Positions 5,660 to 19,634 of a stretch of DNA of 64,000 nucleotides are shown piece after piece. Each line of letters opens with the position of its first letter. The first letter of the stretch is position 1. The translations under genes and the position numbers were made by a program. The notes under the pieces were generated by a model. It did not search any database. It was given only the letters and a program-made list of their open reading frames with translations, and was not told the origin of the DNA. This DNA is from an uncultured Alphaproteobacteria bacterium (GTDB taxonomy: Bacteria; Pseudomonadota; Alphaproteobacteria; UBA2966). Location of the stretch: the NCBI GenBank assembly GCA_958295725.1, contig OY282368.1, positions 2,688,001 through 2,752,000 of the forward strand, read 5' to 3'.

Positions 5660-6300
5660 CGACCTTTCGATCTCGTGTGCGCGCGGGCGGACTTCATGGC
5701 CGCCCCGAAGAGCTCTTCCGGACCGCGGCGGAGAAGTCCGCCCTCCGTGCTGCCTTCGATCTCGAAATACTCGTCGGCGAGAACGCGAAACAAGACGATA
5801 TCCCAGTACCTGCCGTCCCGAAGGACGTGTTGCTCTTGCCGGCCTTCCACCCGGAATCCGAGCGCGCCGAGCATTCCGACCCAGACATCCAGACCACAGT
5901 GGGCTCCCCCATATATACGATTGAGGTTGAGCCTGCGAAAGCCGTGACCGACCAGCAAGGCCATGGCTTCCAATCCCGCTGTTTCCGAGCGTCCCTCGCC
6001 GAGCGTGATCGCGATCTCCGCTCGTCGGTTGATCGGGTCAATCTCTTGAAGCGAGATGTTTCCGAGCAACCTGTCGCCTTCTCTGGCGACGGTCGCCAGC
6101 ATCAGCCTGTTGGTATCCGCCAGACCCGCGCGAAGGTATTCGAGCTGCGCTTCGCGAGTATTCGGAAATATGCCATGGCTGGTGAACCGGGTGACATGAG
6201 CATCGTTGTACCAAGCGTGCCAGTTACCGTCGATGACGTCGTCCTCGACCGGAGAACGGAGATAGACGGTATGACCTTCCAGGAACGCAGGTTCCTTCAT
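5656..6300 (-). CDS. GNAT-family N-acyltransferase (RimJ/RimL-like), probable sugar N-acyltransferase
   Basis: A 214-residue GNAT protein. The N-terminal FLEGHTVYLRSPVEDDV is the usual RimL-type opening. The acyl-CoA-binding region falls around GEGRSETAGLEAMALLVGHG, and LNLNRIYGGAHCGLDVWVGM precedes the last strands. In flagellin-glycan loci such proteins (PseH, LegH and neighbours) acylate an amino sugar. Here the gene follows an AMP-forming ligase, an SDR and an acyl carrier protein, so its acyl donor may be a carrier-bound acyl group made by those genes rather than plain acetyl-CoA (inference). The C-terminal 35 or so residues are basic and extend past the usual domain end. Confidence 0.82.
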   Translation of the reverse strand: MKEPAFLEGHTVYLRSPVEDDVIDGNWHAWYNDAHVTRFTSHGIFPNTREAQLEYLRAGLADTNRLMLATVAREGDRLLGNISLQEIDPINRRAEIAITLGEGRSETAGLEAMALLVGHGFRRLNLNRIYGGAHCGLDVWVGMLGALGFRVEGRQEQHVLRDGRYWDIVLFRVLADEYFEIEGSTEGGLLRRGPEELFGAAMKSARAHTRSKGR

Positions 6301-6352
6301 CGCATCGGGATCCTAGCGCAGGTTTCTGAAAAGGTGATTGTTATTCAACGTT

Positions 6353-7648
6353 TCACAGGCGTTTATGGCGATGACCGATCACGACCTTTCCGATCACGAT
6401 CCCATGAGGCCGCATATGATCGGGAAGTCGTTCCCGGAAAAATTTTCTTAGATCCCGGCGATCGATCTCCACGCCATCTCTCGGCTGACAGCGTACTTCA
6501 ATATGCTGCCCAGTGAGTGGGTTCGGCCTTCCCGTTGCCTTCGCACACAGCACATCCGGATGTTGTAGTGCGCAACTTTCGATTTCTCCCGGCAAGACCT
6601 TCAGCCCACCGACATTGATGACTTCTTGTGATCGGCCCACGATTCGCAGATAGTCTTCGTCCTGCTCCACCAAGTCACCGGTATCGTACCAATCGTTTAC
6701 GAAGGGCGAATCGGCATTGAGGTACCCCAACATCCGGTCCCGGGCCCGAATCCACAGGGTTCCCTGTGCCACGCGAGTTTCAACTCCCTCGCCGCCGACT
6801 TTCATCCAGAGCGACCCTCGCGCCTTCGACGTCACGCGCAAGATACCGAGTTCGGACATACCGTACGTTTGACGAAAGTCCAAATCGGGTAGCTCTCGAC
6901 ACAGCGTCTCAAGAGTCGACCGATCCATCGCCTCCGTACCGTACGTGACGATGCGAAGCCGAGTCTCGCGCAAACGCTTCACCAATCCGTTCAACAATAG
7001 CATCCGCAGAAAGGTCGGAGTCGTGGGTAGTAGTTCCACACCGTACTCTTCAACATCCCTGGTGACGGCTTCGACCGTACGATCGCGAGGCACCACGACG
7101 CAACCGCGATTGAATAACGTGTGAAGCAGAGTGTTGAGACCTCCGATATGATCGAACAAGAGAAAGTTCAGGGTACGAAGCGCCATTCGAGGCGTCCTGT
7201 AGCGTTTAAGGAAAATCTCAAAATCATGCAGAATGGCCTTTGGAAACCCAGTCGTCCCCGATGTGAACAGCACCAGACCCGGTCTGTCATTTCTCCTCAA
7301 CTTTTGCAACAGGTCGTGGTCCCGCCTCTTCGTACGGAGACGCTTCACGTCATTACCCTCGATAACAACATCCACCCTCGCTGCCTCGAAAAATCGGTCA
7401 TGAAACTGTCGGGTGGCCTGAGTCAATGGCACCACGATTGCCCTACGCTCGATCAGCTCCAGTAGCAGCCGGATATTCCGCGCGTCGAAGTCTCCTACGA
7501 CCGCGACGACATCGCCCGATTTGACTTCGGCACCCTCGGAGAATACGACGGAACGGATATCGACAAACCGAAGAACCTGACGACCGGAAATCAAGAATTC
7601 CTGATCGCTATCTCGATGGATCTCGGTGAGTTCTTGAAGAATCCCCAT
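6353..7648 (-). CDS. AMP-forming acyl/amino-acid ligase (AMP-binding family)
   Basis: A 431-residue adenylate-forming enzyme. The ATP-loop motif LFTSGTTGFPKA lies at about residues 128-139, a YGMSELG adenine-binding motif near 265, and YDTGDLV near 330. These proteins activate a carboxylic acid as an acyl-adenylate and pass it to CoA or a carrier protein. It is shorter than classical acyl-CoA synthetases (about 500-550), and the C-terminal catalytic-lysine region is compressed to VVIGHRHKRL, so thioester formation may be altered. The ATG chosen overlaps the upstream SDR stop; a TTG one codon earlier is also open. The natural partner is the acyl carrier protein encoded two genes upstream. The region is visibly AT-richer than the flanks. 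Confidence 0.85.
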   Translation of the reverse strand: MGILQELTEIHRDSDQEFLISGRQVLRFVDIRSVVFSEGAEVKSGDVVAVVGDFDARNIRLLLELIERRAIVVPLTQATRQFHDRFFEAARVDVVIEGNDVKRLRTKRRDHDLLQKLRRNDRPGLVLFTSGTTGFPKAILHDFEIFLKRYRTPRMALRTLNFLLFDHIGGLNTLLHTLFNRGCVVVPRDRTVEAVTRDVEEYGVELLPTTPTFLRMLLLNGLVKRLRETRLRIVTYGTEAMDRSTLETLCRELPDLDFRQTYGMSELGILRVTSKARGSLWMKVGGEGVETRVAQGTLWIRARDRMLGYLNADSPFVNDWYDTGDLVEQDEDYLRIVGRSQEVINVGGLKVLPGEIESCALQHPDVLCAKATGRPNPLTGQHIEVRCQPRDGVEIDRRDLRKFFRERLPDHMRPHGIVIGKVVIGHRHKRL

Positions 7649-8343
7649 CAAACTCCACCGATACTGAGAATCTGGCCCGTGATCATGTTCGCATTATCGG
7701 AGAGGAGAATCTCGACTACATTCCAGACATCCTCTACGGTGCCCCGACGCCGAATCATCTGCCGATCCACGATCTCTTGAATCTTCTCGTCATCGATCTT
7801 GGCAATCAACCGGGTATCCACCGGACCTGGAGAGACAGCGTTGACAGTCACGCCATGATCAGCCATCTCTCTAGCGAGAACCCGCGTAAACGCTTCCACA
7901 CCGGCCTTCGAGGCGACATAGACAGCCTCTCCACTCAGAGCCAATGGGACGGCGATCGTGGAGAAATTGATGATTCGACCACCTCTTCGGCGCACCAGAA
8001 AGCGGCCCACGACCTGCGACACGTATATCGTACCCAAAAGATTCACCGATATCACGTGCGCGGCGGTTGCCGCGGGCGTCCCAAGCGCCAAGTTCATGGA
8101 TGCGATACCCGCCGCGTTGATTACTCCGATGAGTGAATCGTCCCGTTTGAGGTCGGCGAGCACGGCCGTGACGTCCTCCGGCGCCTGGACATTGCAAATT
8201 CGCGCTTCGTATCGGTCGGATTGGGGTTTCGTTCGTGAAAGGCCCACGACACGATATCCGGCATCGGTGGCGCGCTCGGCAACATGCGCACCGACTCCAC
8301 GCGAGGCACCGGTGACGATCAGAGTCTTCGAACCGCTGCCCAA
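7648..8343 (-). CDS. Short-chain dehydrogenase/reductase, 3-oxoacyl-ACP-reductase-like
   Basis: A 231-residue classical SDR. The nucleotide-binding TGASRGVG is at residues 11-18, the NAAG motif near 75-78, and the catalytic Ser128, Tyr141 and Lys145 lie in FSTIAV...VYVASKAG. Its FabG-like character and position between an acyl carrier protein and an adenylate-forming ligase suggest that it reduces a carrier-bound 3-oxoacyl group, for example to make a hydroxyacyl decoration for an amino sugar (inference). No ATG precedes the fold; the start used is TTG, with CTG a few codons upstream as an alternative. Either start places it close to the ACP stop, consistent with coupling. Confidence 0.85.
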   Translation of the reverse strand: MGSGSKTLIVTGASRGVGAHVAERATDAGYRVVGLSRTKPQSDRYEARICNVQAPEDVTAVLADLKRDDSLIGVINAAGIASMNLALGTPAATAAHVISVNLLGTIYVSQVVGRFLVRRRGGRIINFSTIAVPLALSGEAVYVASKAGVEAFTRVLAREMADHGVTVNAVSPGPVDTRLIAKIDDEKIQEIVDRQMIRRRGTVEDVWNVVEILLSDNANMITGQILSIGGV

Positions 8344-8348
8344 TCGAT

Positions 8349-8642
8349 TCAGTCCGACACCATGAGTCGGGCCATGTGACCCACCAGAGAATCGACATTA
8401 CGCAAGATACTGCTGTCACGTGACATCAAGGAGTCGGATGTCCAATCGAATTCCACTCCAAACTCCTCCTCCATGTAGTCCTCGATCGATATCAACAATT
8501 CAACAAGCTCTCTGGACTTCACGGAGCCGCCTTCGCCGATCAACGGCGTTTCACCGGTAAAGTCCGCAGTCGGCCTGCCGGTGATGCTACCGAGCTCGGT
8601 GGTCACGAACTCAAGGATCCTGCTGGTGCTTAGCGTATTCAT
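8349..8642 (-). CDS. Acyl carrier protein (stand-alone, operon-specific)
   Basis: A 97-residue acidic protein with the helical pattern of a carrier domain. The attachment serine is probably S40 in GEGGSVKSRELVELL, followed by the helix II pattern; a helix III region is SSILRNVDSLVGHMARL. The usual DSL triad reads GSV, so the aspartate before the phosphopantetheine serine is missing while the serine is kept. It is not the housekeeping ACP. Its neighbours are an SDR, an adenylate-forming ligase and a GNAT, so it probably carries the acyl group used to decorate a sugar. Its ATG overlaps the TGA of the truncated reading frame at 8639-8737. Confidence 0.8.
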   Translation of the reverse strand: MNTLSTSRILEFVTTELGSITGRPTADFTGETPLIGEGGSVKSRELVELLISIEDYMEEEFGVEFDWTSDSLMSRDSSILRNVDSLVGHMARLMVSD

Positions 8643-8737
8643 CGTTCCAGAATCAACCTCAAGTAGTCACCCACCCAGCCTCGCGCCGGGACGCGGTGGC
8701 GGAACTCCACGCCGACCCGTTCCCCGGGGCCGGTCAC
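8639..8737 (-). pseudogene. Orphan 3' coding end (32 codons) homologous to the end of the amidotransferase gene at 9257-10531
   Basis: An open frame of 32 codons starting at GTG and ending at a TGA that overlaps the ACP start. Its middle, VEFRHRVPARGWVGDY, is nearly the same as the end of the WbuX/PseA-like protein (MEFRHRVLARGWVDGYY). The rest of that gene is absent, so this is a detached tail. The frame is still open, and its overlap with the ACP start suggests it marks the original gene junction. It could still be translated as a leader peptide for the ACP gene, or be a passive relic. Confidence 0.7.
8672..8712. repeat. Direct repeat, left copy (pairs with 9272-9312)
   Basis: These 41 bp match 9272-9312 with only 3 differences, all transitions. 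The two copies are exactly 600 bp apart and are in the same reading frame with respect to the encoded tail. They bracket the coiled-coil gene at 8748-9179. Confidence 0.9.
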
Positions 8738-8747
8738 GCGCAATCCC

Positions 8748-9179
8748 TCACGAGAGCAGTTTCACGAGCGCGACGACGGCGGCAACGATGGCCCCGACGA
8801 TGGCTCCGGTCTGCATCCACAGGGCGCGGTAGAGATCGGCCTTGTCGGCCTTGGTCTCCAGCTTGTCTTCCAGGCGGGTGATGGCAGCTTTGGTGGCGGC
8901 TTCGAGGCTGGCGATGTCGGCCTCGAGGTTAGCGATGTCGGCTTTGGTAGCGGCCTTGAGGTTAGCGATGTCGGCTTTGGTGACGGTTTCCAAGCGGGCG
9001 ATGTCGGCTTTGGTAGCGGCCTCGAGGTTGGCGATGTCGGCTTTGGTGGCGAGCGCATCGCGATCGGCGGCGGCGGCTTGGCGCACGGTATCGGCGATGG
9101 CTTCCGCATGGGCGCGAACCACGCCGGCGGCCTCGAGATTACGCGTCGCGGCGAGGGTGTCGAAAGCGGTATCGGTCAT
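8748..9179 (-). CDS. DUF1640/CCDC90-like coiled-coil protein with C-terminal membrane anchor, copy 1
   Basis: A 143-residue protein. Residues 1-45 form the conserved head (TDTAFDTLAATRNLEAAGV, then a helix ending ALATKAD). Residues 45-110 are about six degenerate copies of ATKADIANLEA, a long coiled coil. Residues 123-142 (TGAIVGAIVAAVVALVKLL) form one transmembrane helix at the very C-terminus. The layout matches the DUF1640 family, whose bacterial members are small, often multicopy and of unknown function. The start is the ATG with a GGAGGAG ribosome site 4 nt upstream; the frame continues further but reads antisense junk through the previous gene. It has no evident role in sugar synthesis. 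It lies between direct repeats and has a shorter relative at 16813-17121. Confidence 0.8.
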   Translation of the reverse strand: MTDTAFDTLAATRNLEAAGVVRAHAEAIADTVRQAAAADRDALATKADIANLEAATKADIARLETVTKADIANLKAATKADIANLEADIASLEAATKAAITRLEDKLETKADKADLYRALWMQTGAIVGAIVAAVVALVKLLS

Positions 9180-9256
9180 TCGGCTCCTCCGGCATCGGGT
9201 TTCGGCAAGCACCGTTCCACGTCCCCGCCGACGCGAGACGGCCGCGACCGCCAGAT

Positions 9257-10531
9257 TCAGTAATAACCGTCCACCCAGCCCCGCGCCAGGACGCGGTGGC
9301 GGAACTCCATGCTGGCGGGATCCTTCGGCGGCGTCAATTCGAAGTCGCGGCGCGCCTCCGGTAGCGGTTCCAGGGCGGTGTCGTCCGTATCCTCGTCCGT
9401 GCGCAGGCAGACGCTGTCGCGCAGGTGCCAGCGACCGTCCTCGTCCCGCTCCCAAGTGGCCGGGTCGCGATACCGGTCGATCCGCTCGTAGAACGCCTTC
9501 GCCGACATTCCGATCCAGTCCAGAAACATCTTCTCGTCGGGCGGGCGGCGGTGCTGGTATCTCTCGACCTGCCGGATCGCCTGCTCGCGGCTCATGCGCC
9601 GCAGGCGGATCTCCCGGCTGGCGTGGTCGCTGACCTTGCCGTAGCCCCATTTCAGGAACTTCACGTAGTCGTGCAGGCCGGTGTAGTGCATGCAGTCGAC
9701 GTGCATGTAGCGATCGAAAGTCCGGTGCTGATCGAGCGTTTCATAGCCGTACTCCCGAATCATCCGCTCATGCTGGGTCTTGCTGTCCCAGCGCAGATAG
9801 CTGTCCAGATAGATGCCCCGGACGCCGACCTTCTCCAGCTCCTTGTCGTGAGGATAGACGAATTGCTGGATGTCGGCCTCGCTCAGATCATCCGACGCCG
9901 CCAGCACATCCTCCGCCTCGCACCCCATCAGATCGTGGTCCTTGCGATACTTGCGGGTCATCTCGACCTCGTCGAGGTGAGAGAACATGCCGACCTGCTC
10001 GACGCCTTGGTGAAAGCCCCAGACGATCAGCGGGATCTTCAGCCGCGCGGCCGTCTGCACCGGAAACACCGTCTGGCCGGCCAACACGTGCCAGTAGATG
10101 CTGCCCATCAACTCGATGGTGTTCCGTGTCAGGCGCTTCAGGCAGTCGGCCGCCGGGGCGACCTGCACGTGATCGCAGTCGAACAGGGTGCGCAGATAGG
10201 CGAGATTGCGGATGCCGAGGTGGGTGTTCCAGTGCTTGTTGTAGGTCACCAGCAGCGGGTTCATGCCGAACACGTTTTTCACCGTGTGTACGATGAAATA
10301 GCTGTCGCGCGCGCCCGATACCGGGACGATACAATCGTAGGTCTCGCCCGTATTCGACCGGTATGCGTCGAACAGCGCCCGTAGCGCCTCCAGCCGGGCT
10401 GGCCAGTCCAGTTCGTCCTTCTCCTCGTGGACGCGGCAACCGCTGCAAACGCCGTCTTCGTCGAAGACGATACCCAACGGATGGTTGGCCGGATAAACGC
10501 AGCGCCTGCAGTATTGCATGTTATCGCCCAT
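9257..10531 (-). CDS. N-acetyl sugar amidotransferase-like protein (WbuX/PseA/WbpG family), copy 2
   Basis: A 424-residue PP-loop ATPase-family protein. Two CxxC pairs (C8/C11 and C29/C32) make the usual N-terminal zinc-type knot. The PP-loop reads SGARDS at residues 72-77 instead of the usual SGGKDS, so one loop glycine is replaced by alanine and the lysine by arginine. The family uses ammonia supplied by HisH and HisF partners to convert an acetamido group to an acetamidino group. It directly follows the HisF-like gene (5 bp gap). The C-terminal 60 residues, including the EFRHRVLARGWV tail, extend past the sister protein at 12050-13252. Whether this copy is active, has a new substrate, or is regulatory is open. 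Confidence 0.82.
   Translation of the reverse strand: MGDNMQYCRRCVYPANHPLGIVFDEDGVCSGCRVHEEKDELDWPARLEALRALFDAYRSNTGETYDCIVPVSGARDSYFIVHTVKNVFGMNPLLVTYNKHWNTHLGIRNLAYLRTLFDCDHVQVAPAADCLKRLTRNTIELMGSIYWHVLAGQTVFPVQTAARLKIPLIVWGFHQGVEQVGMFSHLDEVEMTRKYRKDHDLMGCEAEDVLAASDDLSEADIQQFVYPHDKELEKVGVRGIYLDSYLRWDSKTQHERMIREYGYETLDQHRTFDRYMHVDCMHYTGLHDYVKFLKWGYGKVSDHASREIRLRRMSREQAIRQVERYQHRRPPDEKMFLDWIGMSAKAFYERIDRYRDPATWERDEDGRWHLRDSVCLRTDEDTDDTALEPLPEARRDFELTPPKDPASMEFRHRVLARGWVDGYY
9272..9312. repeat. Direct repeat, right copy (pairs with 8672-8712)
   Basis: This is the native 3' coding end of the amidotransferase gene. It matches 8672-8712 at 38 of 41 positions. Together the copies bracket the coiled-coil gene. 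Confidence 0.9.
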
Positions 10532-10536
10532 GCCGC

Positions 10537-11406
10537 TCAGATTTCCTCGGGCGGATGGTCTTCCCAGAACTGGGCCTGGAGATAGTCATCGGTCCGCCGG
10601 GCCAACCGCCCCCCGGCGCCGAACTCGTTGTCGTCGTAGCGGGCATGGCTGTCGAGGCGCACGTCGATGCCTTGCCGGCGCAGGAAAGCCTTCGCGATCG
10701 TGATGCTGTGTTCCGTGAAATTGAAGAAGTTGGCCGCCGCGGCGGCGGATACGTCCGCCGCGTCGAACAGCTCGACGAAATGCGCCGGCTCTCCCGCGCC
10801 GCCCAAGGCGATGACCGGAATGCTGACGGCCTCGACGGCCATGCGGTACAGGTCCAGCTCGAAGCCGTCCTTCCGCCCGTCGCGGTCTATCGCGTTCAGC
10901 AGGATCTCGCCGACGCCGGCGTCCTCCAGACCGCGGGCGTGGTCGACGACCGGTCGTCCGGTGTCGACGCGACCGCTGTCGGCAAAGACGGTGTAGCCGC
11001 CGCCGTCGCGCCGGACGTCGACCGAGGCGACCAGACACTGACTGCCGAAGCGATCCGCCGCCGCCGGGATCAGCGCCGGGTCGGCCAGGACCGCGGTGTT
11101 CAGAACGATCTTGTCGGCCCCGGCCTCCAGCGTGGCGCGGATGTCCTCGACGCTCCACAAGCCGCCGCCGACCGTAAGCGGCGCGAAACAGCGGTTCGCG
11201 GCCGCCGTGACGAGCTCGCCCGGGATCCGTCGGCCCTCGCGCGACGCCCGGATATCCAGCAGGACGATTTCGTCGGCGCCCCAGGCATTGAAGAATTCGA
11301 CCGAGATCGCCGGATCGGATACCGGCAGGTAGCGACGGAAGCCGATGCTCTGCACGGCATGTCCTCGGTGGACCAGCACCACGGCAATGATTCTGCGCTT
11401 CAGCAT
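10537..11406 (-). CDS. HisF-like (beta/alpha)8 protein, WbuZ-type glycosyl amidation-associated
   Basis: A 289-residue HisF homologue. The N-terminus MLKRRIIAVVLVHRG lacks the catalytic Asp11 of true HisF (which reads ...CLDV...), while phosphate-loop regions such as TVGGGLWSVEDI and IALGGAGEPAHF are kept. Loss of that aspartate is typical of the WbuZ/HisF2 group that channels ammonia to an amidotransferase in O-antigen and flagellin-glycan loci rather than making histidine. It is about 30 residues longer than HisF. The start is the ATG overlapping the hisH stop by 7 bp; the long upstream extension of the frame is antisense to hisH. It sits between hisH and the second WbuX/PseA-like gene. Confidence 0.88.
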   Translation of the reverse strand: MLKRRIIAVVLVHRGHAVQSIGFRRYLPVSDPAISVEFFNAWGADEIVLLDIRASREGRRIPGELVTAAANRCFAPLTVGGGLWSVEDIRATLEAGADKIVLNTAVLADPALIPAAADRFGSQCLVASVDVRRDGGGYTVFADSGRVDTGRPVVDHARGLEDAGVGEILLNAIDRDGRKDGFELDLYRMAVEAVSIPVIALGGAGEPAHFVELFDAADVSAAAAANFFNFTEHSITIAKAFLRRQGIDVRLDSHARYDDNEFGAGGRLARRTDDYLQAQFWEDHPPEEI

Positions 11407-12056
11407 CGGACAATCCGCTGGTTCGGCCGCGGTCTCGGCACGCCGACGGCGTCGAAGAACCTGCGGAGAAGCCGCAGGCCGGATGACTGGCTCTTCTCCG
11501 GATGGAACTGGGTCGCGAAGAGATTGTCCTTGCGGATCGCCGCGACCAGATCGCCTCCGTAGTCGCAGACAGCCGCCGTATAACGCGCGTCGCAGCGCAG
11601 CTCGAAGGAATGATCGAAATAGAAGCTGGTCGACGGCTGGACGTCTTCGGTCAAGGGCGACGGGGTCACGGGCCGGAGGGTGTTCCAGCCGACGTGCGGT
11701 ACCCGCAGCGGCGCCCCGCGGTCCGCCAAGCTCACGACGTCGCCGTCGATCCATCCGAAGCCGGCATGAGCACCACGCTCGCCCGACGACCGGGCCGCGA
11801 GCTGCATGCCCAGGCAGATCCCGAAGAACGGCTTCCCCTTCGATCGGACATGCTCGTCCAGCGCGTCGTACAGGCCGAGGCGGTGGATGTTTTCCATGGC
11901 CTGGCCGAAGGCGCCGACGCCCGGCAACACCACCACGTCCGCCGCGGCGACGGTATCCGCATCATCGCCGATGCGGACGTCATAGCCCAGGAACCGCACC
12001 GCGTTGTAGACCGAGCGCAGGTTACCCATGCCGTAATCGACGATGCGGATCAGCAT
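11400..12056 (-). CDS. HisH-like glutamine amidotransferase (WbuY-type)
   Basis: A 218-residue class I glutaminase. The nucleophile is C81 in GICLGMQL, and the other triad members are H185 and E187 in ATQFHPEKS. The N-terminus IRIVDYGMGNLRSV and the LPGVGAF turn are canonical. It releases ammonia from glutamine for delivery through the HisF-like barrel to the amidotransferase. The start at MLIRIVD overlaps the stop of the upstream WbuX/PseA-like gene by 7 bp, and its own stop overlaps hisF by 7 bp, which gives a tightly coupled amidation module. All catalytic residues are present, unlike the truncated relative at 17354-17710. Confidence 0.92.
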   Translation of the reverse strand: MLIRIVDYGMGNLRSVYNAVRFLGYDVRIGDDADTVAAADVVVLPGVGAFGQAMENIHRLGLYDALDEHVRSKGKPFFGICLGMQLAARSSGERGAHAGFGWIDGDVVSLADRGAPLRVPHVGWNTLRPVTPSPLTEDVQPSTSFYFDHSFELRCDARYTAAVCDYGGDLVAAIRKDNLFATQFHPEKSQSSGLRLLRRFFDAVGVPRPRPNQRIVRC

Positions 12057-13252
12057 GCGCCCGCCAGCGGCTGCGGATGGACAACGTCGGCCTCGTGATC
12101 CGGTGGGCGCCGGTGATCGGGCGTATCGTAATAGATCGCGAACTTGGGCACCCAGCGGCCCCGCCGGTCGCGCTCCCAAATCTCCGGATTGCGGTACGAT
12201 TCGGCCACACGCCAGAACTCATCCTCGCCGATCTCGATGTAGTCGCAGAAGCGGCGGATGAAGCGGGCCGAGCACTGGCCGTCGTAGAGGCGCACCAGTT
12301 CGATCCCGCGCTCGCGCGTCAGGAACCCGGAGCGGATCGCTCCGCTGACCTGCTGTGTGACCTTACCGAAGCCGAACTTCAGATGCTTCAGCAACTGGTT
12401 CACCATGACGAAATCGTCGTCCAAGGCGTCGAACGGCGCGATATGGCCGTTTTCTTCCGGCCGCGCGTCGATCCCGTGACGTTGCGTCAGCCCGTGTTCC
12501 AGGGCGACGCGGGCGTTCACGAAGTCATAGAAATCCGGGATGTAATATCCCAGAAATATCATACGCAGACCGGCGCGGTCGATATCCTCGTCGGACGGAT
12601 AGGTGTACAAATACAGGTCGCGGGGACGTATGCCTTCCTCGATCCACGGTGTCAGATCGCCGCCCTTCAGGGTATTATTGTATTTAAGATTGTTCGCGTC
12701 GCCGTCCAGTGAGCCGCCGGCGCTGCCCCAGCTCAATGTTGGATTTTCGCCGTAGACGACCAACGGGATACCGTAGGCGATCGCCACCTTCGGCGCGCTT
12801 GCGTAAAGCGGCAGTTCTGTCGACTTGGCCATGTTACCGAACTTGTAGAATCCGGTTCTCATCAGCCGCTTCCAGAGCTGTGGCGCCGGGCTCACGATAT
12901 AGGTATCGAAGCCGAGGCGGATCAGGTTCTCCAAGTTCGCCGCGCCGCGTTCGGTCTGATGTTCCGGAGGATAGGTCAGGCTGGCCAGAAGCGGACGGAG
13001 CCCGAGCTCGTCGCGCATGAACAGCGATTGACGTGTGCTGTCCTTGCCGCCGCTGACCGGAACGATGCAGTCATAACCAGACCGGCCACGCCCGCGGTGC
13101 CGATCCACGATCGCCTCGAGTTGACGACGCCGTTCGTCCCAGTCGACGCCGGGCAGAGTCTCGCGATAGCGGCAGGGGTAGCAGATGCCCTCGTCGTCGA
13201 AGATGCAGTCCGGCCGGGTGTCCGGCTCGACGCAGCGCTTACAGAACCGCAT
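12050..13252 (-). CDS. N-acetyl sugar amidotransferase (WbuX/PseA/WbpG family), copy 1
   Basis: A 400-residue protein. A two-CxxC knot (C4/C7, C24/C27) is followed by an intact PP-loop SGGKDS at residues 67-72. By family, it adenylates and amidates an N-acetyl group on a nonulosonate or bacillosamine-type sugar to an acetamidino group, using ammonia made by the adjacent HisH/HisF pair. The start at MRFCKRC is chosen because it places the zinc knot at the N-terminus; 8 more codons are open upstream. With hisH and hisF it forms the complete amidation unit. Its paralogue at 9257-10531 has a changed PP-loop. Confidence 0.9.
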   Translation of the reverse strand: MRFCKRCVEPDTRPDCIFDDEGICYPCRYRETLPGVDWDERRRQLEAIVDRHRGRGRSGYDCIVPVSGGKDSTRQSLFMRDELGLRPLLASLTYPPEHQTERGAANLENLIRLGFDTYIVSPAPQLWKRLMRTGFYKFGNMAKSTELPLYASAPKVAIAYGIPLVVYGENPTLSWGSAGGSLDGDANNLKYNNTLKGGDLTPWIEEGIRPRDLYLYTYPSDEDIDRAGLRMIFLGYYIPDFYDFVNARVALEHGLTQRHGIDARPEENGHIAPFDALDDDFVMVNQLLKHLKFGFGKVTQQVSGAIRSGFLTRERGIELVRLYDGQCSARFIRRFCDYIEIGEDEFWRVAESYRNPEIWERDRRGRWVPKFAIYYDTPDHRRPPDHEADVVHPQPLAGAC

Positions 13253-13306
13253 CGTCCGTCTCCGGCCGTCGTCCACTGGTGAAGATCGCGGCCACCGGTC
13301 TCGCCA

Positions 13307-13379
13307 TCAGATCGGGTAGCTCACCCTGACTAACCGCCCGGCGATGGCGGCTTCGTGGACGGTGAAACGCACGTCCATG
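13307..13379. repeat. Direct repeat, left copy (pairs with 14744-14816)
   Basis: 73 bp, matching 14744-14816 at 64 of 73 positions without gaps. All nine differences are transitions. The pair brackets the methyltransferase gene at 13400-14443. Confidence 0.9.
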
Positions 13380-13399
13380 TCGGTTTCGCCGTGGCGCAT
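13307..13399 (-). pseudogene. Orphan 3' coding end (30 codons) homologous to the end of the Gfo/Idh gene at 14744-15790
   Basis: An open frame of 30 codons from an ATG lying just after the methyltransferase stop (TGAATG) to TGA. It contains MDVRFTVHEAAIAGRLVRVS, against MDVCFAAREAAIAGRSVRVS at the end of the intact oxidoreductase. The remaining 300 or more codons of the oxidoreductase are missing here. The reading frame and stop position are preserved. It is a detached tail copy lying between the methyltransferase and the amidotransferase gene. Confidence 0.75.
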
Positions 13400-14443
13400 T
13401 CAGCGCTGGATGGTTGTGAGGAGGTGGACTTCCGACGAGAGCTTACGCTCGTCGAACACCAACTGAAGAGCGTCGATCAGAGGCAGCATCAAGTCGTTCC
13501 ACGTCACGACCGCACTATTGGTTTCCGGGCGCTCCCCAAGCAGAACGGAGATCGAGCGATGGAGATCGAAGACATTGGCGCCAAACCACCATTCGGCCGT
13601 ACGCCGCAAACCGAAGTTCTGACATATCCGCTCAAGCGACCGGTCGGAAAAGAGATGAGTGTGGCCGAGGCCGAGCACTCGCGGCATGACATGGGGGAAA
13701 AGCGCTTCGAGCACGATAGTCGGGCTCACGGTGGGTACCGAGATATAGAAATAGCGGCAGTACGGGTTCGAACGAAGTGCGCTCAAGAACGAGCGGAGTG
13801 CGCAAACATGCTCCAGCGAGAAAATCATCGAGATCAAGTCGGCCTCAACAGTCGCGGCGACATCGTTGAGCACATCGAGTTCGTTATGGCGCAATAGTTT
13901 CTCTCCGAACAAGACGTTTGTGTTGTCGACCAGTTCCTCCGATGTTTCGTAACCGATGGCGCGGGTCATCCCAGCTTTCCGGAGAGCCATGACAAAATGG
14001 CCAGCACCAGCACCGAGATCGACATAGCGAAGCGTTGCCGGGTCCTCTCCGAGATCGCGCAGCGCATCGCACATGAAAACCACCTTGGCGGAATAAATGG
14101 TGTCGACGCGCTCCATGAACGACGCACGCGTCCGATCCATGTAGACGGTCGCCGTTTCGTTCATACCGGCTTCGTAGATCTGCGCAGCGAACTCAAACGT
14201 ATCTTCGTGATGGCCGTTAAAATGACCACAATCGGCACAGAAGCTATACGGCGCACCATGGAAGATAAAAGTTGGCTCCTTGAACGCGGTGCCGCAGACG
14301 ACGCAACCTTCCCGCAGTGGCTGCCGACAATAGAGCGCACCAACCCGTCTCGCGAGATCAGACCAGAGCTGATTTGTGTCCCGGTCATAAAACAGAGACT
14401 TGTACTCCAAATACATCTCACTCGATTTGCCGTAGCGTATCAT
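13400..14443 (-). CDS. Class I SAM-dependent methyltransferase with N-terminal zinc-knot
   Basis: A 347-residue protein. A four-cysteine knot (C47/C50 and C69/C72; CVVC and CADCGH) is followed by the SAM-binding motif VDLGAGAGHF at residues 141-150 and then a Rossmann-type region. The layout resembles sugar C-methyltransferases and other methyltransferases of polysaccharide loci that carry a leading zinc site. The substrate is unknown. Codon use is less GC-rich than in its neighbours, and a 300-bp non-coding leader precedes it. It is bracketed by two copies of the 3' end of the neighbouring oxidoreductase gene, so it looks like a later insertion. Confidence 0.82.
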   Translation of the reverse strand: MIRYGKSSEMYLEYKSLFYDRDTNQLWSDLARRVGALYCRQPLREGCVVCGTAFKEPTFIFHGAPYSFCADCGHFNGHHEDTFEFAAQIYEAGMNETATVYMDRTRASFMERVDTIYSAKVVFMCDALRDLGEDPATLRYVDLGAGAGHFVMALRKAGMTRAIGYETSEELVDNTNVLFGEKLLRHNELDVLNDVAATVEADLISMIFSLEHVCALRSFLSALRSNPYCRYFYISVPTVSPTIVLEALFPHVMPRVLGLGHTHLFSDRSLERICQNFGLRRTAEWWFGANVFDLHRSISVLLGERPETNSAVVTWNDLMLPLIDALQLVFDERKLSSEVHLLTTIQR

Positions 14444-14743
14444 GTCATGGCCTGTACCGACCGCTATTTTCTCGTAGCGTACCGCCCCGTCGACAGTTGT
14501 TGTACCGACAGCGGCAACCGGACCCGAACCAGATCGTTCGATCCCCGCGCGACCGGGCGGAAACGAGATTCGACATCCTCATACTGCCTAGCGGAACAAA
14601 GCGAAAGACGCATCGGGATATTAGATGACGAGGCAACTTTCCTTGAGAGACTCAAAGCCGTTTCTGAAATCCGGGGGCCGCAACATAGTCGCCCGGAGAG
14701 GATTGTCCTGTCTTTCACGTCTTCGCTCTCTGAGGAGAGAAAG
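14444..14743. other. 300-bp intergenic stretch between oxidoreductase and methyltransferase genes
   Basis: No convincing gene is seen on either strand. Open frames of 60-84 codons on the minus strand have no recognisable domain and unnatural composition. The stretch is AT-richer than the surrounding genes and ends, near the oxidoreductase stop, with a short hairpin-capable CTCTC-TGAG-GAGAG sequence (about 14727-14740) that lacks a T-run. It probably arrived with the methyltransferase and may carry its promoter. Confidence 0.5.
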
Positions 14744-14816
14744 TCAAATCAGATAGCTCACCCTGACCGACCGCCCGGCGATGGCGGCTTCGCGGGCGGC
14801 GAAACACACGTCCATG
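14744..14816. repeat. Direct repeat, right copy (pairs with 13307-13379)
   Basis: This is the native 3' coding end of the Gfo/Idh gene. It is 88 percent identical to the copy at 13307-13379. Confidence 0.9.
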
Positions 14817-15790
14817 ACACGGAACACGTCGCGGGCGCCGACATCGGGCTCGCGTCCCTCGCGGATGGCGGCGATGAAATCCGGGATGAGATCTCCCTTT
14901 TCCATGCCCGGATAGCGCCAACGTTCATCCTCGTTGGACAGCATCTCCTCGTCGGCCGGTCGATCGCCGGAGAAGAGCTTCGCGTCGGGCATGTCGTTCA
15001 CGAAGGTCTTCTTCGTCCCGTACACGTTGAGGGAGTGGAACTTCGTCCTCCGCGGCCCGAACGTGGTGAGACACTTTCCCAAGGCGCCACCGGAGAACCG
15101 AAGCAAGGCGACGAACGTATCATCATACCGGTAACCGCTCCTGCGGGTCAACACGTTGGACCCCATGCACGATACCTCGTCGATCTCCTCGTTCATCACC
15201 CAGCGCATGAGGTCGATGAGATGGATGCCCCCACCGTATATGGTGCAATAGAACGGCATCTTGCCGCGCCACCCTTCGGTGATCTTCCACAGAATGTCGT
15301 GCAGGTAATCGCCCTCGATACAGAAGACGTCACCGAACTCCCCGGCATCCATCAGGCTCTTGACCGACCGGAATCTCGGGCTCTGCCGCAGAATGAGATT
15401 GGAGGTGATGAACCTGCCGCTGTCCTGCTGGGCGCGCAACAGCCGTTCGGCGTCGGGCCGGTTCAGCGCCGCCGGCTTCTCGATCATCACATGCTTGCCG
15501 TGCCGAAAGGCGGAAACCGCCTGCTCGACATGGGCGTCGTCGTATGAGCAGATGGAGACGACGTCGATGTCGGGATGTTCGGTAATGTGGTGGAAGTCCC
15601 CGTGCCGTTCGACGACCCCCAGCTGATCTGCGACGTCGGCGAGCCTGCCCGGATCGATGTCGCAGACTGCCTGCAAAGCGACGCCAGGAGTCCTCCGGTA
15701 GCTGGCGGCATGGCGTTCGCCGACACCAAGACCCACAATGCCGACTCGAATCGTGCTTCGGGAATCGGTCACGCTTGTATGCTTAACCAT
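14744..15790 (-). CDS. Gfo/Idh/MocA-family oxidoreductase, copy 1
   Basis: A 348-residue protein with the dinucleotide-binding GIVGLGVGERH at residues 17-27, the EKP motif at 104-106 (VMIEKPAAL), and GGGIHLIDLMRW near 190 in the catalytic region. The length is normal and the gene is complete. It probably carries out a redox step on a sugar intermediate. The start is ATG, 4 bp downstream of the formyltransferase stop. The last 24 codons exist a second time at 13307-13379, downstream of the methyltransferase gene. It is only distantly like the other Gfo/Idh protein at 1-594. Confidence 0.88.
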   Translation of the reverse strand: MVKHTSVTDSRSTIRVGIVGLGVGERHAASYRRTPGVALQAVCDIDPGRLADVADQLGVVERHGDFHHITEHPDIDVVSICSYDDAHVEQAVSAFRHGKHVMIEKPAALNRPDAERLLRAQQDSGRFITSNLILRQSPRFRSVKSLMDAGEFGDVFCIEGDYLHDILWKITEGWRGKMPFYCTIYGGGIHLIDLMRWVMNEEIDEVSCMGSNVLTRRSGYRYDDTFVALLRFSGGALGKCLTTFGPRRTKFHSLNVYGTKKTFVNDMPDAKLFSGDRPADEEMLSNEDERWRYPGMEKGDLIPDFIAAIREGREPDVGARDVFRVMDVCFAAREAAIAGRSVRVSYLI

Positions 15791-15793
15791 CGG

Positions 15794-16786
15794 TCAACAA
15801 AGGTGAATTCCACGGTCGAGACGCACCGGCGATCCAGCGTCGTCCGTAACTTCCTGGAGTAATACGGCACCGTCTGTACAGATAACATAGGGGCCCTGTC
15901 CTCGCATATAACAGACGCGCCCTGGTACGCCGCGCAATCCGAAGTCCGCCGAGCCGGTGCGCCAGACACGTATCCGACGGCCATCGTGCTCAAAGAAGGC
16001 ACCTGGATAGGGGCGAGTCACCGCACGCACGAGGTCGCGAACTTGGCGCGCCGTGCTCGTCGACCATCTGATTCGCCCATCTCCATCGTTGCGTTGGTGC
16101 CAATAACCAGCCCGAGACTCGTCCTGCACGCGCCGCGCCACGTCGCCAGCATCCAGCGCCGTCAGAACATCGAGAACGAGAGTCGGGAATAACTCGTTTG
16201 CCCGCCTATGGAGGTCGGTGATCGTATCGTCGGGAGCAATCGGAATACTGGTTTCCGCCAGGACATCCCCGGTGTCGATGCCTTCATCAGCCTGAATCAC
16301 ACAGATCCCCGCCTCTGGCTCTCCGTTAATGATCTGCCAATTCAATGGAGAACCGCCACGGTACTCCGGAAGCCGGCCAGCGTGCAAGTTGATAGCGCCC
16401 AATTTCGCCGCATCAAGCAAGGAGCGCCGAAAAACGGTCGAATACCCCGCGATGACGAGCAACCGGGGATTTATGGAGATAAGTTCGGAAACGAACTCCG
16501 GTGCATTCACGTTTCCCGTGGTCGCCATCCGCACGCCCAACCGCCGGCAGCACTCGGCGGTCCGATCCGTCCGAACCCTGCACCTCGGCACGTACACCTG
16601 TTGGACACCATGTCCCGCGCGGATGACTTCGCCAAGTACCGCGCGGCCACGGTCGCCATTGAAGAAGAAAACGAGACCGTCGATCGGTCCACTCAGATAT
16701 CGGCGAAGTACGTCAGTATCTTCCGGTCCCAACGCTCGAAGAAGTCGACGGCGTCCTGCCAGTCGTCGCCCCGCCATGGAATTCAT
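15794..16786 (-). CDS. Formyltransferase-family protein (methionyl-tRNA formyltransferase-like), with a chimeric N-terminus
   Basis: The formyltransferase fold begins at about residue 36 of this frame (DGLVFFFNGDRG). The catalytic triad of the family is present: N133 and H135 in INLHAGRLPEYRGG, and D171 in ADEGIDTGD. A C-terminal OB-like region follows. In sugar loci such enzymes use N10-formyl-tetrahydrofolate to formylate an amino sugar. The first 30 or so residues are the repeat at 16692-16784 read in the wrong frame, rich in arginine, so the ATG at 16786 creates a fusion start. No ATG, GTG or TTG lies between the repeat and the fold; only a CTG does. The original start may have been lost, or translation may begin at a rare codon. 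Confidence 0.78.
   Translation of the reverse strand: MNSMAGRRLAGRRRLLRALGPEDTDVLRRYLSGPIDGLVFFFNGDRGRAVLGEVIRAGHGVQQVYVPRCRVRTDRTAECCRRLGVRMATTGNVNAPEFVSELISINPRLLVIAGYSTVFRRSLLDAAKLGAINLHAGRLPEYRGGSPLNWQIINGEPEAGICVIQADEGIDTGDVLAETSIPIAPDDTITDLHRRANELFPTLVLDVLTALDAGDVARRVQDESRAGYWHQRNDGDGRIRWSTSTARQVRDLVRAVTRPYPGAFFEHDGRRIRVWRTGSADFGLRGVPGRVCYMRGQGPYVICTDGAVLLQEVTDDAGSPVRLDRGIHLC
16692..16784. repeat. Direct repeat, left copy (pairs with 17187-17279)
   Basis: 93 bp, about 82 percent identical to 17187-17279 (17 ungapped differences). On the minus strand it encodes the tail IPWRGDDWQDAVDFFERW..., ending in TGA. In this copy a TGA also lies immediately before the tail. The pair brackets the coiled-coil gene copy 2. 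Confidence 0.88.
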
Positions 16787-16812
16787 TTATGATGCCGGTC
16801 ATGGCGTTTTCA

Positions 16813-17121
16813 TCAAGGAAGCAGTTTGAGTAAACCGACGATGACAGCGGCTTGCCCGAGGATGGCGACATAGAGGCGGTTAATAAGCCGCACTTCAAGG
16901 GCGGAGATCTTCGCTTCGAGGCCGGCGATATCTGCCTTGGTCGCCAACTCTTCATGGCCAGCACCGACGGCCTTGCGCACGGCGTTGGCGATGGCCTCCG
17001 CCTGGACGCGTTCGACGCCCGCGGCTTCGAGGTCACGCGTCGTGGCAAGGGTATCGAAAGCGGCATCGGTTATGGCGTTTCGTTTCCTCCTTGGCTGGTT
17101 CCAGCAAGCGACAGACGACAC
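16813..17121 (-). CDS. DUF1640/CCDC90-like coiled-coil protein with C-terminal membrane anchor, copy 2 (start codon doubtful)
   Basis: Homologous to the protein at 8748-9179: the head TDAAFDTLATTRDLEAAGVE, one LATKADIAGLEAKI repeat instead of about six, and a C-terminal hydrophobic helix ending GLLKLLP. The position equivalent to the ATG of copy 1 (17071-17073) reads ATA here, although a strong AAGGAGG site stands upstream of it. The only in-frame canonical start is GTG at 17121, before that ribosome site. The copy may therefore be poorly translated or silent. Like copy 1 it lies between direct repeats of a gene end. Confidence 0.65.
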   Translation of the reverse strand: MSSVACWNQPRRKRNAITDAAFDTLATTRDLEAAGVERVQAEAIANAVRKAVGAGHEELATKADIAGLEAKISALEVRLINRLYVAILGQAAVIVGLLKLLP

Positions 17122-17186
17122 CTCCCGTGGGCACCGTCGTACGGGTAACTCGATACGACGTCGATTTCCAGGTCCTCCGAGACCCG

Positions 17187-17279
17187 CTCAGGTGTCGGCG
17201 AAGTACATCCGTGTATCGTGATCCCAGCACTCGAAGAAATGGACGACGTCCCGGCAGTCGTCGCCCCGCCATGGAATTC
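17187..17279. repeat. Direct repeat, right copy (pairs with 16692-16784)
   Basis: This copy is part of the longer gene-tail fragment at 17188-17365. Its differences from the left copy are spread out and the frame stays open, as expected for two diverged coding copies. Confidence 0.88.
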
Positions 17280-17365
17280 GTTCGTCTCGCGATGATTTGC
17301 GGCCGACCGCGCAGGGGATGTCGCTGTCGATGTATCGATTGACGAGTTCTTGTCGGAACCCGGAG
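17188..17365 (-). pseudogene. 3' fragment of an unidentified gene, joined out of frame to truncated hisH
   Basis: On the minus strand one frame reads about 58 codons to a TGA at 17188: GFRQELVNRYIDSDIP, then an IPWRGDDCRDVVHFFECW region, ending MYFADT. The composition is that of a real protein, and the end is matched by the repeat at 16692-16784, which supports it as genuine coding sequence. I do not recognise the family. Its 5' part is missing; at about 17354-17365 the sequence changes abruptly to hisH in another frame. This is a recombination or deletion joint. Confidence 0.6.
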
Positions 17366-17710
17366 GCCGGGATCGTCCGGCCTGATGCGCGTCACGGTCC
17401 CGTCGATCCAGCCCAGACCGTCATGCCACCCGAATTCCTCGCTCGACCGCGTCATCAACTGCGATCCCAGGCAGATGCCGAGAACCGGCGTTCCCTTCCC
17501 GACGACGAACGCGTTCAACGGCTCGATCAACCCTCTGTCGCGGAGGTTCCGCATCCCGTCCCCGAAGGCTCCGACGCCGGGCAGGATCAGCTTGTCGCAG
17601 GTTCCGAGAGAATCCGGGTCCGACGATACGCAGGGATCGAACCCGAGCCGTTCGATCGCCCCGGCGACCGACGCGAGATTCCCGAGACCGTAGTCGACGA
17701 TGCCGATCAT
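17354..17710 (-). pseudogene. Truncated HisH-like glutamine amidotransferase
   Basis: The first 119 codons are a good HisH: IGIVDYGLGNLASV at the start, LPGVGAFGDGM, and the nucleophile in GICLGSQL at about C80. After GLRVP, where a normal HisH continues HVGWN, the sequence turns into unrelated DNA. The C-terminal half with the catalytic His and Glu (HPEKS) is absent. The open frame runs on to 17033 by chance, through an arginine-rich stretch. Without the triad it cannot hydrolyse glutamine. An intact HisH is present at 11400-12056. It starts 15 bp after the asparagine synthase stop. Confidence 0.8.
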
Positions 17711-17724
17711 CGCGCCGGTCGCCG

Positions 17725-19602
17725 TCAGCCCGCCACCGCCGCGCGAGGCGGCGCGACGCCCGCGCCCGACGCGAGCGCGCTCTCGAGGAACAGCTTCGCG
17801 GAAACGAAGCCGAAGAGGAACTTGGAGAAACTGTTCTCCGTCATGTCGCCGTCGAGGAACCGCGCGAACGCGTCCCGCCTCACGATGTCGAATATCGGAC
17901 CGTCGGCGAGCAACCTGTCGACGACCTCGGGATCCCCGCGGTCCAGAACCGAATCGATCGAGGCGTTGAACCCCCGCTTGCGCTTGTCCAGCCGCACCTT
18001 GTCGGGAAGCACGTCCGCCACCGCGTCCCGGAGAAGGGACTTGGCGTAACCGTCGCGGATCAGATGCTCCCCGGGCACCGTGTAGAGGAACTCGGCCAAG
18101 GTCCGATCGAGATAGGGGGACCGGGTCTCGACCGACCGGCGCATCGAGTTGCAGTCGTCCTCGTGGAGGACCACGGGCACGACCTCGTGGAAGAGCTCGT
18201 TGAGCATACGGTTTCGAAGCGGATCGTCGACGAAATGCTCCTCGAAGAAATCCTCGTCGAGAGGCTCCACGAGAAGGGCGTTGAAGGTCCCGCGATCGAG
18301 GTAGATGTGGCTCCGCTCCCCGGGGTCGCGCAGGAACACGAGCGGATCCCGGAGGACCGGATTACGAACGAAGGATCCGTAGCCGCCTCGCCAGTCCTCG
18401 ATCAGGCGCTCGAACCCGGCTCCGGGCCCGACACGGCCGCTCATCTGCGCCAACCAGAGTCCGTAGTGGTCGTAATGGCCGGTGAACAGCTCGTCCGCGC
18501 CCGTTCCCGAGATCGCGGCCTTGTAGCCGGCGGCGGCGATCGCCTCGGACAAGAAGGCATGCACGTAGTACGAGATCGTCGCGACCGGGGCGTCGTGATA
18601 CGCGACGAGGTCCGACATCCGGTCGAGGAACCCTTGCGTGCTCGTGCGAATCACCTGGTGGCGGCATTTCAGGGCATCGACGGTCGCCAGAATGTTCTCG
18701 CTCTCGTCGTAGCGTTCATCGCCGTCGACGATGGAGAACGCGTGAATGTCGGCGTCGAACTTCCTGGCCGCCACCGCGACCAGGGCGGAGGAGTCGACGC
18801 CGCCCGAAAGACAGAAGGCCAGCGGCACGTCCGCACGCAACCGCAGGCGGACGGACTCCTCCAGTCGTTCCCGCGCGCCCACCACCGCCTCCTCCCGCGT
18901 CATCGGCCGGGGGGCGTACGACAGCCGCCAATAGCGTCGCGCGTCGACCGGGCTGGGCTCGCGGAGACATGCCGAGGCGCCCGCGGGAAACTCTCGGACG
19001 TTCTCGAAGAACGTCGCCGGTTGCTTGTATAGGGACTTGTACCCGTTGACGAGATAGCGCCGGAGTTGTTTCGCATCGACGGCCGGCGCCGCGCCACTCA
19101 GGGCAGCGAGCAGCTTGACCTCGGAGCCGAAATAGATCGTTCCCCCGCGATGCAGGTAATACAGGGGTTTCTCGCCGAAACGGTCGCGGCTGAGGACGAG
19201 CCGGCCTGCCCCGCGATCGACCAGGGCGAAGGCCCACATCCCCTCGAATCGCTCGGTGCAGGCGAGTCCCCACTCACACCAGGCGCGGTGCAGCACCTCG
19301 GTATCCGAGCGCGTGCGGAACACGTGGCCCCGCGCTTCCAGATCGGTTCTCAGTTCCACGTAGTTGTAGATCTCGCCGTTGTAGGCGAGCGCCTTGTCGC
19401 CATCGACGAACGGCTGGTTCGCGCGCGGGTCCAGATCGATGATCGAGAGCCGGCTGTGCAGCAGGGTCGCGTTGTTCCGTCCGACCGCGCCCGACCAGAC
19501 GCCCTCGGCGTCGGGCCCGCGATTGCGCATCAACGCGAGGGTCCGGCGAACCCGGTCCGGGTCCGGAACGTCGGGGCCGAAACTGCCAGCTATGCCGCAC
19601 AT
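17725..19602 (-). CDS. asnB: Asparagine synthase (glutamine-hydrolysing), operon-associated
   Basis: A 625-residue AsnB-type enzyme. The N-terminal Cys2 (MCGIAGSFG) is the glutaminase nucleophile after Met removal. RNRGPDAEG and the GEIYNY loop complete the Ntn domain. The synthase domain carries the PP-loop FCLSGGVDSSALVA and SGTGADELFTGHYDHY. Family members make asparagine from aspartate or, in polysaccharide and antibiotic loci, amidate other carboxylates. Its place next to neuB and hisH makes a role in amidating a surface sugar or its amino-acid substituent plausible, but ordinary asparagine synthesis cannot be excluded. Confidence 0.88.
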   Translation of the reverse strand: MCGIAGSFGPDVPDPDRVRRTLALMRNRGPDAEGVWSGAVGRNNATLLHSRLSIIDLDPRANQPFVDGDKALAYNGEIYNYVELRTDLEARGHVFRTRSDTEVLHRAWCEWGLACTERFEGMWAFALVDRGAGRLVLSRDRFGEKPLYYLHRGGTIYFGSEVKLLAALSGAAPAVDAKQLRRYLVNGYKSLYKQPATFFENVREFPAGASACLREPSPVDARRYWRLSYAPRPMTREEAVVGARERLEESVRLRLRADVPLAFCLSGGVDSSALVAVAARKFDADIHAFSIVDGDERYDESENILATVDALKCRHQVIRTSTQGFLDRMSDLVAYHDAPVATISYYVHAFLSEAIAAAGYKAAISGTGADELFTGHYDHYGLWLAQMSGRVGPGAGFERLIEDWRGGYGSFVRNPVLRDPLVFLRDPGERSHIYLDRGTFNALLVEPLDEDFFEEHFVDDPLRNRMLNELFHEVVPVVLHEDDCNSMRRSVETRSPYLDRTLAEFLYTVPGEHLIRDGYAKSLLRDAVADVLPDKVRLDKRKRGFNASIDSVLDRGDPEVVDRLLADGPIFDIVRRDAFARFLDGDMTENSFSKFLFGFVSAKLFLESALASGAGVAPPRAAVAG

Positions 19603-19634
19603 GAGGGTTCCATGGGGTTTCCGATCCGAAAATC

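Follow-up and report, generated by a model that had tools for sequence, protein, structure and literature searches.

Three single genes in a glycan biosynthesis cluster, each enclosed by a pair of direct repeats, probably represent three aged insertions with long target duplication, produced by the same genome-wide process that gave rise to a series of sibling sites. That process has operated throughout the genome, and its cargo consists mostly of defense, toxin-antitoxin, and surface-glycan genes.

Three repeat pairs in a glycan biosynthesis cluster

The window (the whole stretch of DNA that was analysed, 64 kb) was compared with itself, and three pairs of direct repeats were detected: 8671-8712/9271-9312 (pair 1; 42 bp, 92.9% identity, or 85% over 53 bp; E=6e-10), 13307-13379/14744-14816 (pair 2; 73 bp, 87.7% identity; E=1e-18), and 16689-16787/17184-17282 (pair 3; 99 bp, 80.8% identity; E=3e-19). 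One minus-strand gene lies inside each pair (8748-9182, 13400-14443, and approximately 16813-17073, respectively). Beyond the trio, the window contains no significant dispersed direct repeats other than the paralogous coiled-coil genes, a tandem array (61036-61504), and a weak match of 49 bp (E=0.02), which excludes chance as the origin of the three pairs. No Rfam match was found in 8000-18000.

The trio lies in a region (4493-20651, minus strand) that encodes a glycan (nonulosonate-type) biosynthesis cluster, including NeuB, an asparagine-synthase-like protein, HisH/HisF and WbuX/WbpG amidotransferases, a formyltransferase, a Gfo/Idh oxidoreductase, and an aminotransferase. The cluster around the trio is much remodelled.

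An earlier note on this DNA had described single genes, three times over, between two copies of the end of the upstream gene, and the repeats themselves are confirmed here (E values from 6e-10 to 3e-19). Its identification of the duplicated sequence as the 3′ end of the upstream gene holds for cases 1 and 2, while in case 3 the upstream gene is a methyltransferase stump (gene Z, see below) and not HisH. The proposal that the repeat always ends at the stop codon is correct as to proximity but not as to exactness, the ends falling at -14 (case 1), 0 (case 2), and +3 bp (case 3). As had also been noted, there is no integrase or transposase among the open reading frames of the three inserts, as judged from the ORF list and Pfam.

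Structure of the three probable insertions

The features of case 1 are as follows:

9257..10531, minus strand: host gene 1, N-acetyl sugar amidotransferase of the WbuX/WbpG type (TIGR03573, E 1e-99)
9271..9312, minus strand: proximal copy of duplication 1, within the 3′ end of the host gene, 14 bp before the stop codon (92.9% identical to 8671-8712)
8748..9182, minus strand: insert gene 1, CCDC90-like coiled-coil protein (PF07798, E 4e-7, below the cut-off)
8671..8712, minus strand: detached copy of duplication 1 (self-comparison)
8349..8642, minus strand: gene following insertion 1 on the downstream side, acyl-carrier-protein-like by context

The reading frame that passes through the detached copy stops at 8639 and overlaps the start of this next gene (ATG at 8642), whose 97-aa product has no Pfam match.

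In case 2, the insert lies downstream of an oxidoreductase gene, which in most relatives is directly followed by the aminotransferase gene:

14744..15790, minus strand: host gene 2, Gfo/Idh/MocA oxidoreductase (PF01408, PF22725, PF02894)
14744..14816, minus strand: proximal copy of duplication 2, whose end is exactly the stop codon (self-comparison)
13400..14443, minus strand: insert gene 2, class I SAM methyltransferase (PF13489, E 6e-14)
13307..13379, minus strand: detached, decaying copy of duplication 2 (self-comparison and alignment of relatives)

The GC content of this insert is 55.8%, compared with 63.3% in its flanks. Over their 72-bp coding stretches the two copies are 87.5% identical to each other, and either of them is at most 68% identical to any of 16 relatives. 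The copies differ at nine positions, all of them transitions and six of them nonsynonymous, and residues conserved in 15-16 of the 16 relatives are broken in the detached copy.

Case 3 is more complex, and its features are:

17366..17710, minus strand: HisH-type amidotransferase, truncated and continuing out of frame into the Z stump (sequence comparison with relatives)
17191..17352, minus strand: last 54 codons of methyltransferase Z (body deleted), bearing proximal copy 3 (homologous to Z in L056 and L055)
17184..17282, minus strand: proximal copy of duplication 3 (80.8% identical to 16689-16787)
16813..17073, minus strand: insert gene 3, CCDC90-like (PF07798, E 6e-7, below the cut-off)
16689..16787, minus strand: distal copy of duplication 3, at the native Z/formyltransferase junction (gene order in relatives)
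15794..16786, minus strand: formyltransferase, with its annotated start within distal repeat 3 (PF00551, PF02911)

HisH was considered as the upstream gene and rejected, the repeat-bearing part being the C-terminal stump of methyltransferase Z. A break near 17352-17366 interrupts the HisH-like gene, and its out-of-frame continuation, QELVNRYIDSD...FADT and a stop codon, corresponds to the C-terminal end of a class I methyltransferase (the sugar-cluster gene Z) in related clusters. Full-length Z directly precedes the formyltransferase gene in three of these (L056, L075, and L089), which indicates that both 99-bp copies are ends of Z; in L055 it lies near a Gfo/Idh gene. Since Z abuts or overlaps the formyltransferase start in L075 and L089, the distal copy corresponds to the native junction. 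This junction occurs once in the relatives (L056/L075 and L089), with no CCDC90 gene between its two sides. The true start of the formyltransferase is probably close to the end of the distal repeat, and the start codon of insert gene 3 (the second coiled-coil copy) appears to have been lost by a change from ATG to ATA.

Divergence between the copies

When 14 coding repeats of this genome were pooled, the differences between copies amounted to 46 nonsynonymous and 24 synonymous changes, compared with 277 and 342, respectively, when four orthologs were aligned with their counterparts in the sister species G002 (Fisher p=0.001). This excess of nonsynonymous changes over that of orthologs indicates that the copies were near-identical when made and that one of them then decayed. 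Judged from these sequence comparisons, each pair is best read as a gene and a relic decaying after duplication, not as two functional homologs that were brought together.

Related events elsewhere in the genome

The survey covered 1.71 Mb of the 3.67-Mb genome (approximately 47%), taken as stretches, and was restricted to unique pairs of 35-400 bp with at least 80% identity and a spacing of at most 9 kb. Multi-copy repeats were filtered out, and dispersed repeat families are thereby rejected as a source of the pairs. In total, 28 unique pairs (1.64 per 100 kb) were found, compared with 0.40 per 100 kb (three unique pairs) in 758 kb of related alphaproteobacterial loci, a comparison set that is small and biased to one gene cluster. 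Genomes of the same family have 1.38 pairs per 100 kb (506 kb), at lower identity. An identity of at least 88% is reached by 20 of the 28 pairs here, and all three unique pairs from the other alphaproteobacterial loci fall below that value. Thus, the self-comparison that the earlier note had suggested, here over the 1.71-Mb sample, does reveal other genes flanked in this way.

Some of the 28 pairs were set aside, such as a template/variable pair of a diversity-generating retroelement, tandem paralogs (1.192 Mb), and internal repeats of a giant protein (541 kb). The remaining pairs enclose modules typical of horizontal acquisition, many of them low in GC (below the flanks in 16 of 20 candidate inserts). 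The cargo identified at these sites is listed below:

42 kb, 1.093 Mb, and 2.010 Mb: type II restriction-modification
1.224 Mb: Septu PtuAB
1.569 Mb: GmrSD-family gene
503 kb: TcmP beside DUF5131
74 kb: PIN-domain toxin and antitoxin-like gene
1.558 Mb: SocA-like antitoxin
2.198 Mb: DUF1828
1.032 Mb (pyrB/TauD-type dioxygenase site): glycosyltransferase

Identity between copies ranges from 100% to approximately 80% across the events of the genome. The length of the duplication is bounded at approximately 40-400 bp (41-400 bp at the sibling sites), and in the range from 400 bp to a few kb the sample yielded no simple flanking pairs apart from paralog arrays. The duplicated sequence differs from event to event, as is evident from the uniqueness filter and from pairwise comparison, and no shared motif was seen at the ends of the candidate inserts. 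A tRNA origin of the repeats was also rejected, the copies containing no tRNA, as was a mobile element specific to CCDC90/DUF1640, since the other copies of this gene lack flanking repeats, save one non-unique pair near FGE-sulfatase (DGR-type) genes. The remnant at 1.558 Mb continues into a transposase-like fragment. In the detached copy at 2.010 Mb, an internal deletion has brought together two parts of the host gene (10198-10359 and 10770-10810), which indicates that relics shrink by deletion.

Empty sites in relatives

At the 1.032-Mb pyrB/TauD-type dioxygenase site (L204; also G001, L205), colinearity with this genome extends to both flanks in G002 as well as in G001, and neither of them has the 2.9-kb insert or more than one of the two 57-bp copies. 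At the 1.569-Mb and 1.595-Mb sites (L257 and L260), which look the youngest by copy identity (99.2% and 100%, respectively), the same-genus G002 has a single copy of the 132-/134-bp repeats and no insert. The comparison of empty sites that had been proposed earlier therefore gives one tail copy at three sibling sites in G002. In addition, the insert of the 1.224-Mb site is absent from G002. Clean empty sites were not found at the hemW (42 kb), SMP-30-like (74 kb), and BMP-lipoprotein-like (1.558 Mb) sites, where the flanking synteny differs.

Within the trio, the empty-site comparison covered the junction of case 3; cases 1 and 2 are assigned to insertion with target duplication by analogy with the tested sibling sites. 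We infer that the trio as a whole arose by the process seen at those sites. Taken together with the 28 unique pairs and the empty sites at siblings, the earlier suggestion that three such insertions reflect a recurrent process and not an accident is supported.

Position of the duplicated stretch

Relative to the stop codon, the repeats of those events that have an assigned host gene end at -14, -14, 0, +1, +3 (case 3), +19, +35, +39, and +62 bp. In other events the repeat lies over a gene start (n=3) or in a gene interior (n=2), and intergenic DNA is also involved. The trio, with ends at most 14 bp from the stop codon, is tighter than most of its siblings. Gene ends are over-represented among the events, yet they are not obligatory. 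The idea that the process targets or regenerates gene ends is therefore not upheld, because repeats also occur at starts, in interiors, and in intergenic DNA, and their ends scatter around the stops. The preference is best explained by survival: a repeat over a gene end leaves one full copy of the gene, so that the insertion is tolerated, and no preference of the process itself is needed.

Mechanism and alternative explanations

In the proposed mechanism, a DNA fragment would be captured at a staggered chromosome break, and the filling-in or copying of the staggered break would duplicate the target stretch on either side of the insert. Where the duplicated stretch covers a gene end, the proximal copy would keep the host gene whole and the other copy would become a relic; in case 3, the distal copy would keep the start of the formyltransferase whole. 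The relic copy would then decay. No match to Ku (PF02735) was found in this genome or in six same-genus/same-family genomes (G000-G006), which argues against classical bacterial end joining. Counting against this explanation are the cargo of the trio (CCDC90-like proteins and a sugar methyltransferase), which is not typical defense cargo, the tightness of its repeat ends around stop codons, the small and biased set of comparison loci, and the similar pair density of same-family genomes.

Of the other routes considered, Campbell-type integration is the one to be taken most seriously, although we regard it as unlikely. Here, a linear donor consisting of the end of a gene and the inserted gene would form a circle and enter the chromosome through a single RecA crossover in the gene end common to both. 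This predicts the identical final structure and the same empty sites, and the end of the repeat would fall close to the stop codon without any targeting, as the likeness between donor and recipient stops there. It was also reported that E. coli mostly circularizes incoming homologous linear DNA, which then enters by a single crossover and leaves partial gene duplications (PMC3240628). However, the differences between copies look like neutral decay and not like donor-recipient divergence, so that a near-identical (conspecific) donor would be required. Moreover, several repeats (41-62 bp) are short for a RecA crossover, and several extend tens of bp beyond the stop codon. Longer flanking repeats (400 bp to a few kb) are also lacking except in paralog arrays, though they would be unstable as well; the bounded length of the repeats slightly favors filling-in at a staggered break over crossover of a small circle. 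Much less probable is homology-facilitated illegitimate recombination, in which incoming DNA carrying an allele of the host gene followed by the inserted gene would recombine in the host gene and be joined illegitimately inside the resident copy, the tail being its remnant. This route is known in bacteria and leaves a gene-end remnant on the next gene (PMC3240628), but it leads one to expect alleles under purifying selection, whereas the differences are rich in nonsynonymous changes and break conserved residues; at the sibling sites, moreover, the resident gene is syntenic with that of G002 and DNA was simply gained.

A tandem duplication that placed the inserted gene between two host-gene copies, one of which was later deleted except for its tail, was the outcome that the earlier note regarded as refuting insertion. 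Detached copies do shrink by internal deletion, as the two-piece remnant at 2.010 Mb illustrates, but tandem paralogs around the inserted genes were not seen in relatives, in which the Gfo/Idh gene and Z are single-copy at these places, and the empty sibling sites have one copy and no inserted gene; we consider this origin very improbable. Least probable is a site-specific mobile element or cassette system that recognizes and restores gene 3′ ends. The anatomy resembles that of islands integrating at such ends, and both CCDC90 inserts end a similar short distance past their stop codon. On the other hand, the duplicated sequences differ each time, the trio contains no recombinase, no shared motif was seen at the insert ends, and other CCDC90 copies in the genome occur without such repeats.

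Relation to known systems

Some integrases use gene 3′ ends as attachment sites. As in those systems, the 3′ end of the host gene is intact here and a displaced second copy exists, but there is no integrase and no conserved core sequence, and the target is new each time.

The earlier note knew of no described element of such form. Such a form is already on record for the restriction-modification genes of Helicobacter pylori, where it was named insertion with long target duplication (Nobusato, Uchiyama, Ohashi, and Kobayashi 2000, Gene 259:99-108), and was later extended to all restriction types (Furuta, Abe, and Kobayashi 2010), according to PMC1643837, PMC3031569, and PMC4978471. The features in common are the lack of an evident recombinase, long and variable direct target repeats flanking the insert, an empty allele with one copy, and restriction-modification cargo, which occurs at three sites here. 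The differences are that the host is an alphaproteobacterium and not Helicobacter, that the cargo adds Septu, GmrSD, TcmP/DUF5131, toxin-antitoxin, glycosyltransferase, sugar methyltransferase, and CCDC90-like genes, and that many events of graded age occur in one genome, the trio being represented by decayed gene-end repeats. Circularization with a single crossover and homology-facilitated illegitimate recombination (PMC3240628) likewise leave foreign DNA next to a partial duplication, in the case of single crossover, or next to a remnant of a resident gene, but they need donor homology, whereas the copies here look self-derived. Thus, events of this kind are known; the novelty lies in how many occur in one genome, in how broad their cargo is, and in the absence of Ku.

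These observations bear on the question of how single defense or glycan genes without a mobility gene enter bacterial chromosomes. With approximately 20 candidate events of graded age in one genome, several of them with empty sites in a sister species, the proposed mechanisms become directly testable, and gene-end relics next to an accessory gene can be interpreted as traces of such an insertion. As a tentative extension, this lineage may possess an active, recombinase-free and Ku-independent form of gene capture that builds defense and surface-glycan islands gene by gene, copying a 40-400 bp target each time, with dozens of graded-age events per genome and cargo beyond restriction-modification. 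With regard to the latter, restriction-modification cargo is absent from the trio and present at the 42-kb, 1.093-Mb, and 2.010-Mb siblings, and it is an association and not part of the mechanism.

CCDC90-like genes and their small partner gene

Multiple CCDC90/DUF1640-like genes occur in the genome (at 1.038, 1.272, 1.278, 2.154, and 2.160 Mb, in the sampled stretches L065, L066, and L143), and the number of internal repeats differs strongly among them. At three positions (1.046, 2.155, and 2.602 Mb), a small partner gene whose start is ATGACCG comes after the CCDC90-like gene.

L065 16499-16795, and corresponding places elsewhere: small partner gene after CCDC90-like gene

In both CCDC90-like inserts of the window (8748-9182 and 16813-17073, minus strand), only a ATGACCGGC-like start (at about 8726 and 16800, respectively) is left ahead of the detached tail, the second copy of the host gene's 3′ end; it is as if the partner gene had been truncated at a similar point in each.

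Diversity-generating retroelement

Several of the CCDC90/DUF1640-like genes adjoin genes of the retroelement or of FGE-sulfatase proteins, and a possible association between them may deserve a look.

L066 10126-14010 (about 1.274-1.278 Mb in the genome): FGE-sulfatase-domain target protein, bAvd-like gene, and reverse transcriptase, which together make up a diversity-generating retroelement
L143 15431-16408: additional FGE-sulfatase-domain protein
L143 18377-19807: additional FGE-sulfatase-domain protein, probable

A repeat pair within the retroelement (L066 12026-12150 and 13692-13816) carries numerous changes at A positions and looks like its variable and template repeats.

Deletion scar and other repeats

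Window 17191-17710: truncated HisH joined out of frame to the C-terminus of methyltransferase Z
Window 61036-61504: tandem array with units of about 30 bp, within a coding region

The HisH/Z fusion is a deletion scar, from which HisF, WbpG, and most of Z have been removed; a second set, at window 9257-13276, seems to provide what these genes did. In the genome (G000:C1), the regions at about 1.535-1.548 and 2.110-2.123 Mb share a matching internal repeat structure with equal identities and a constant offset, which suggests that a block exceeding 10 kb was duplicated, either in the genome itself or by the assembly.
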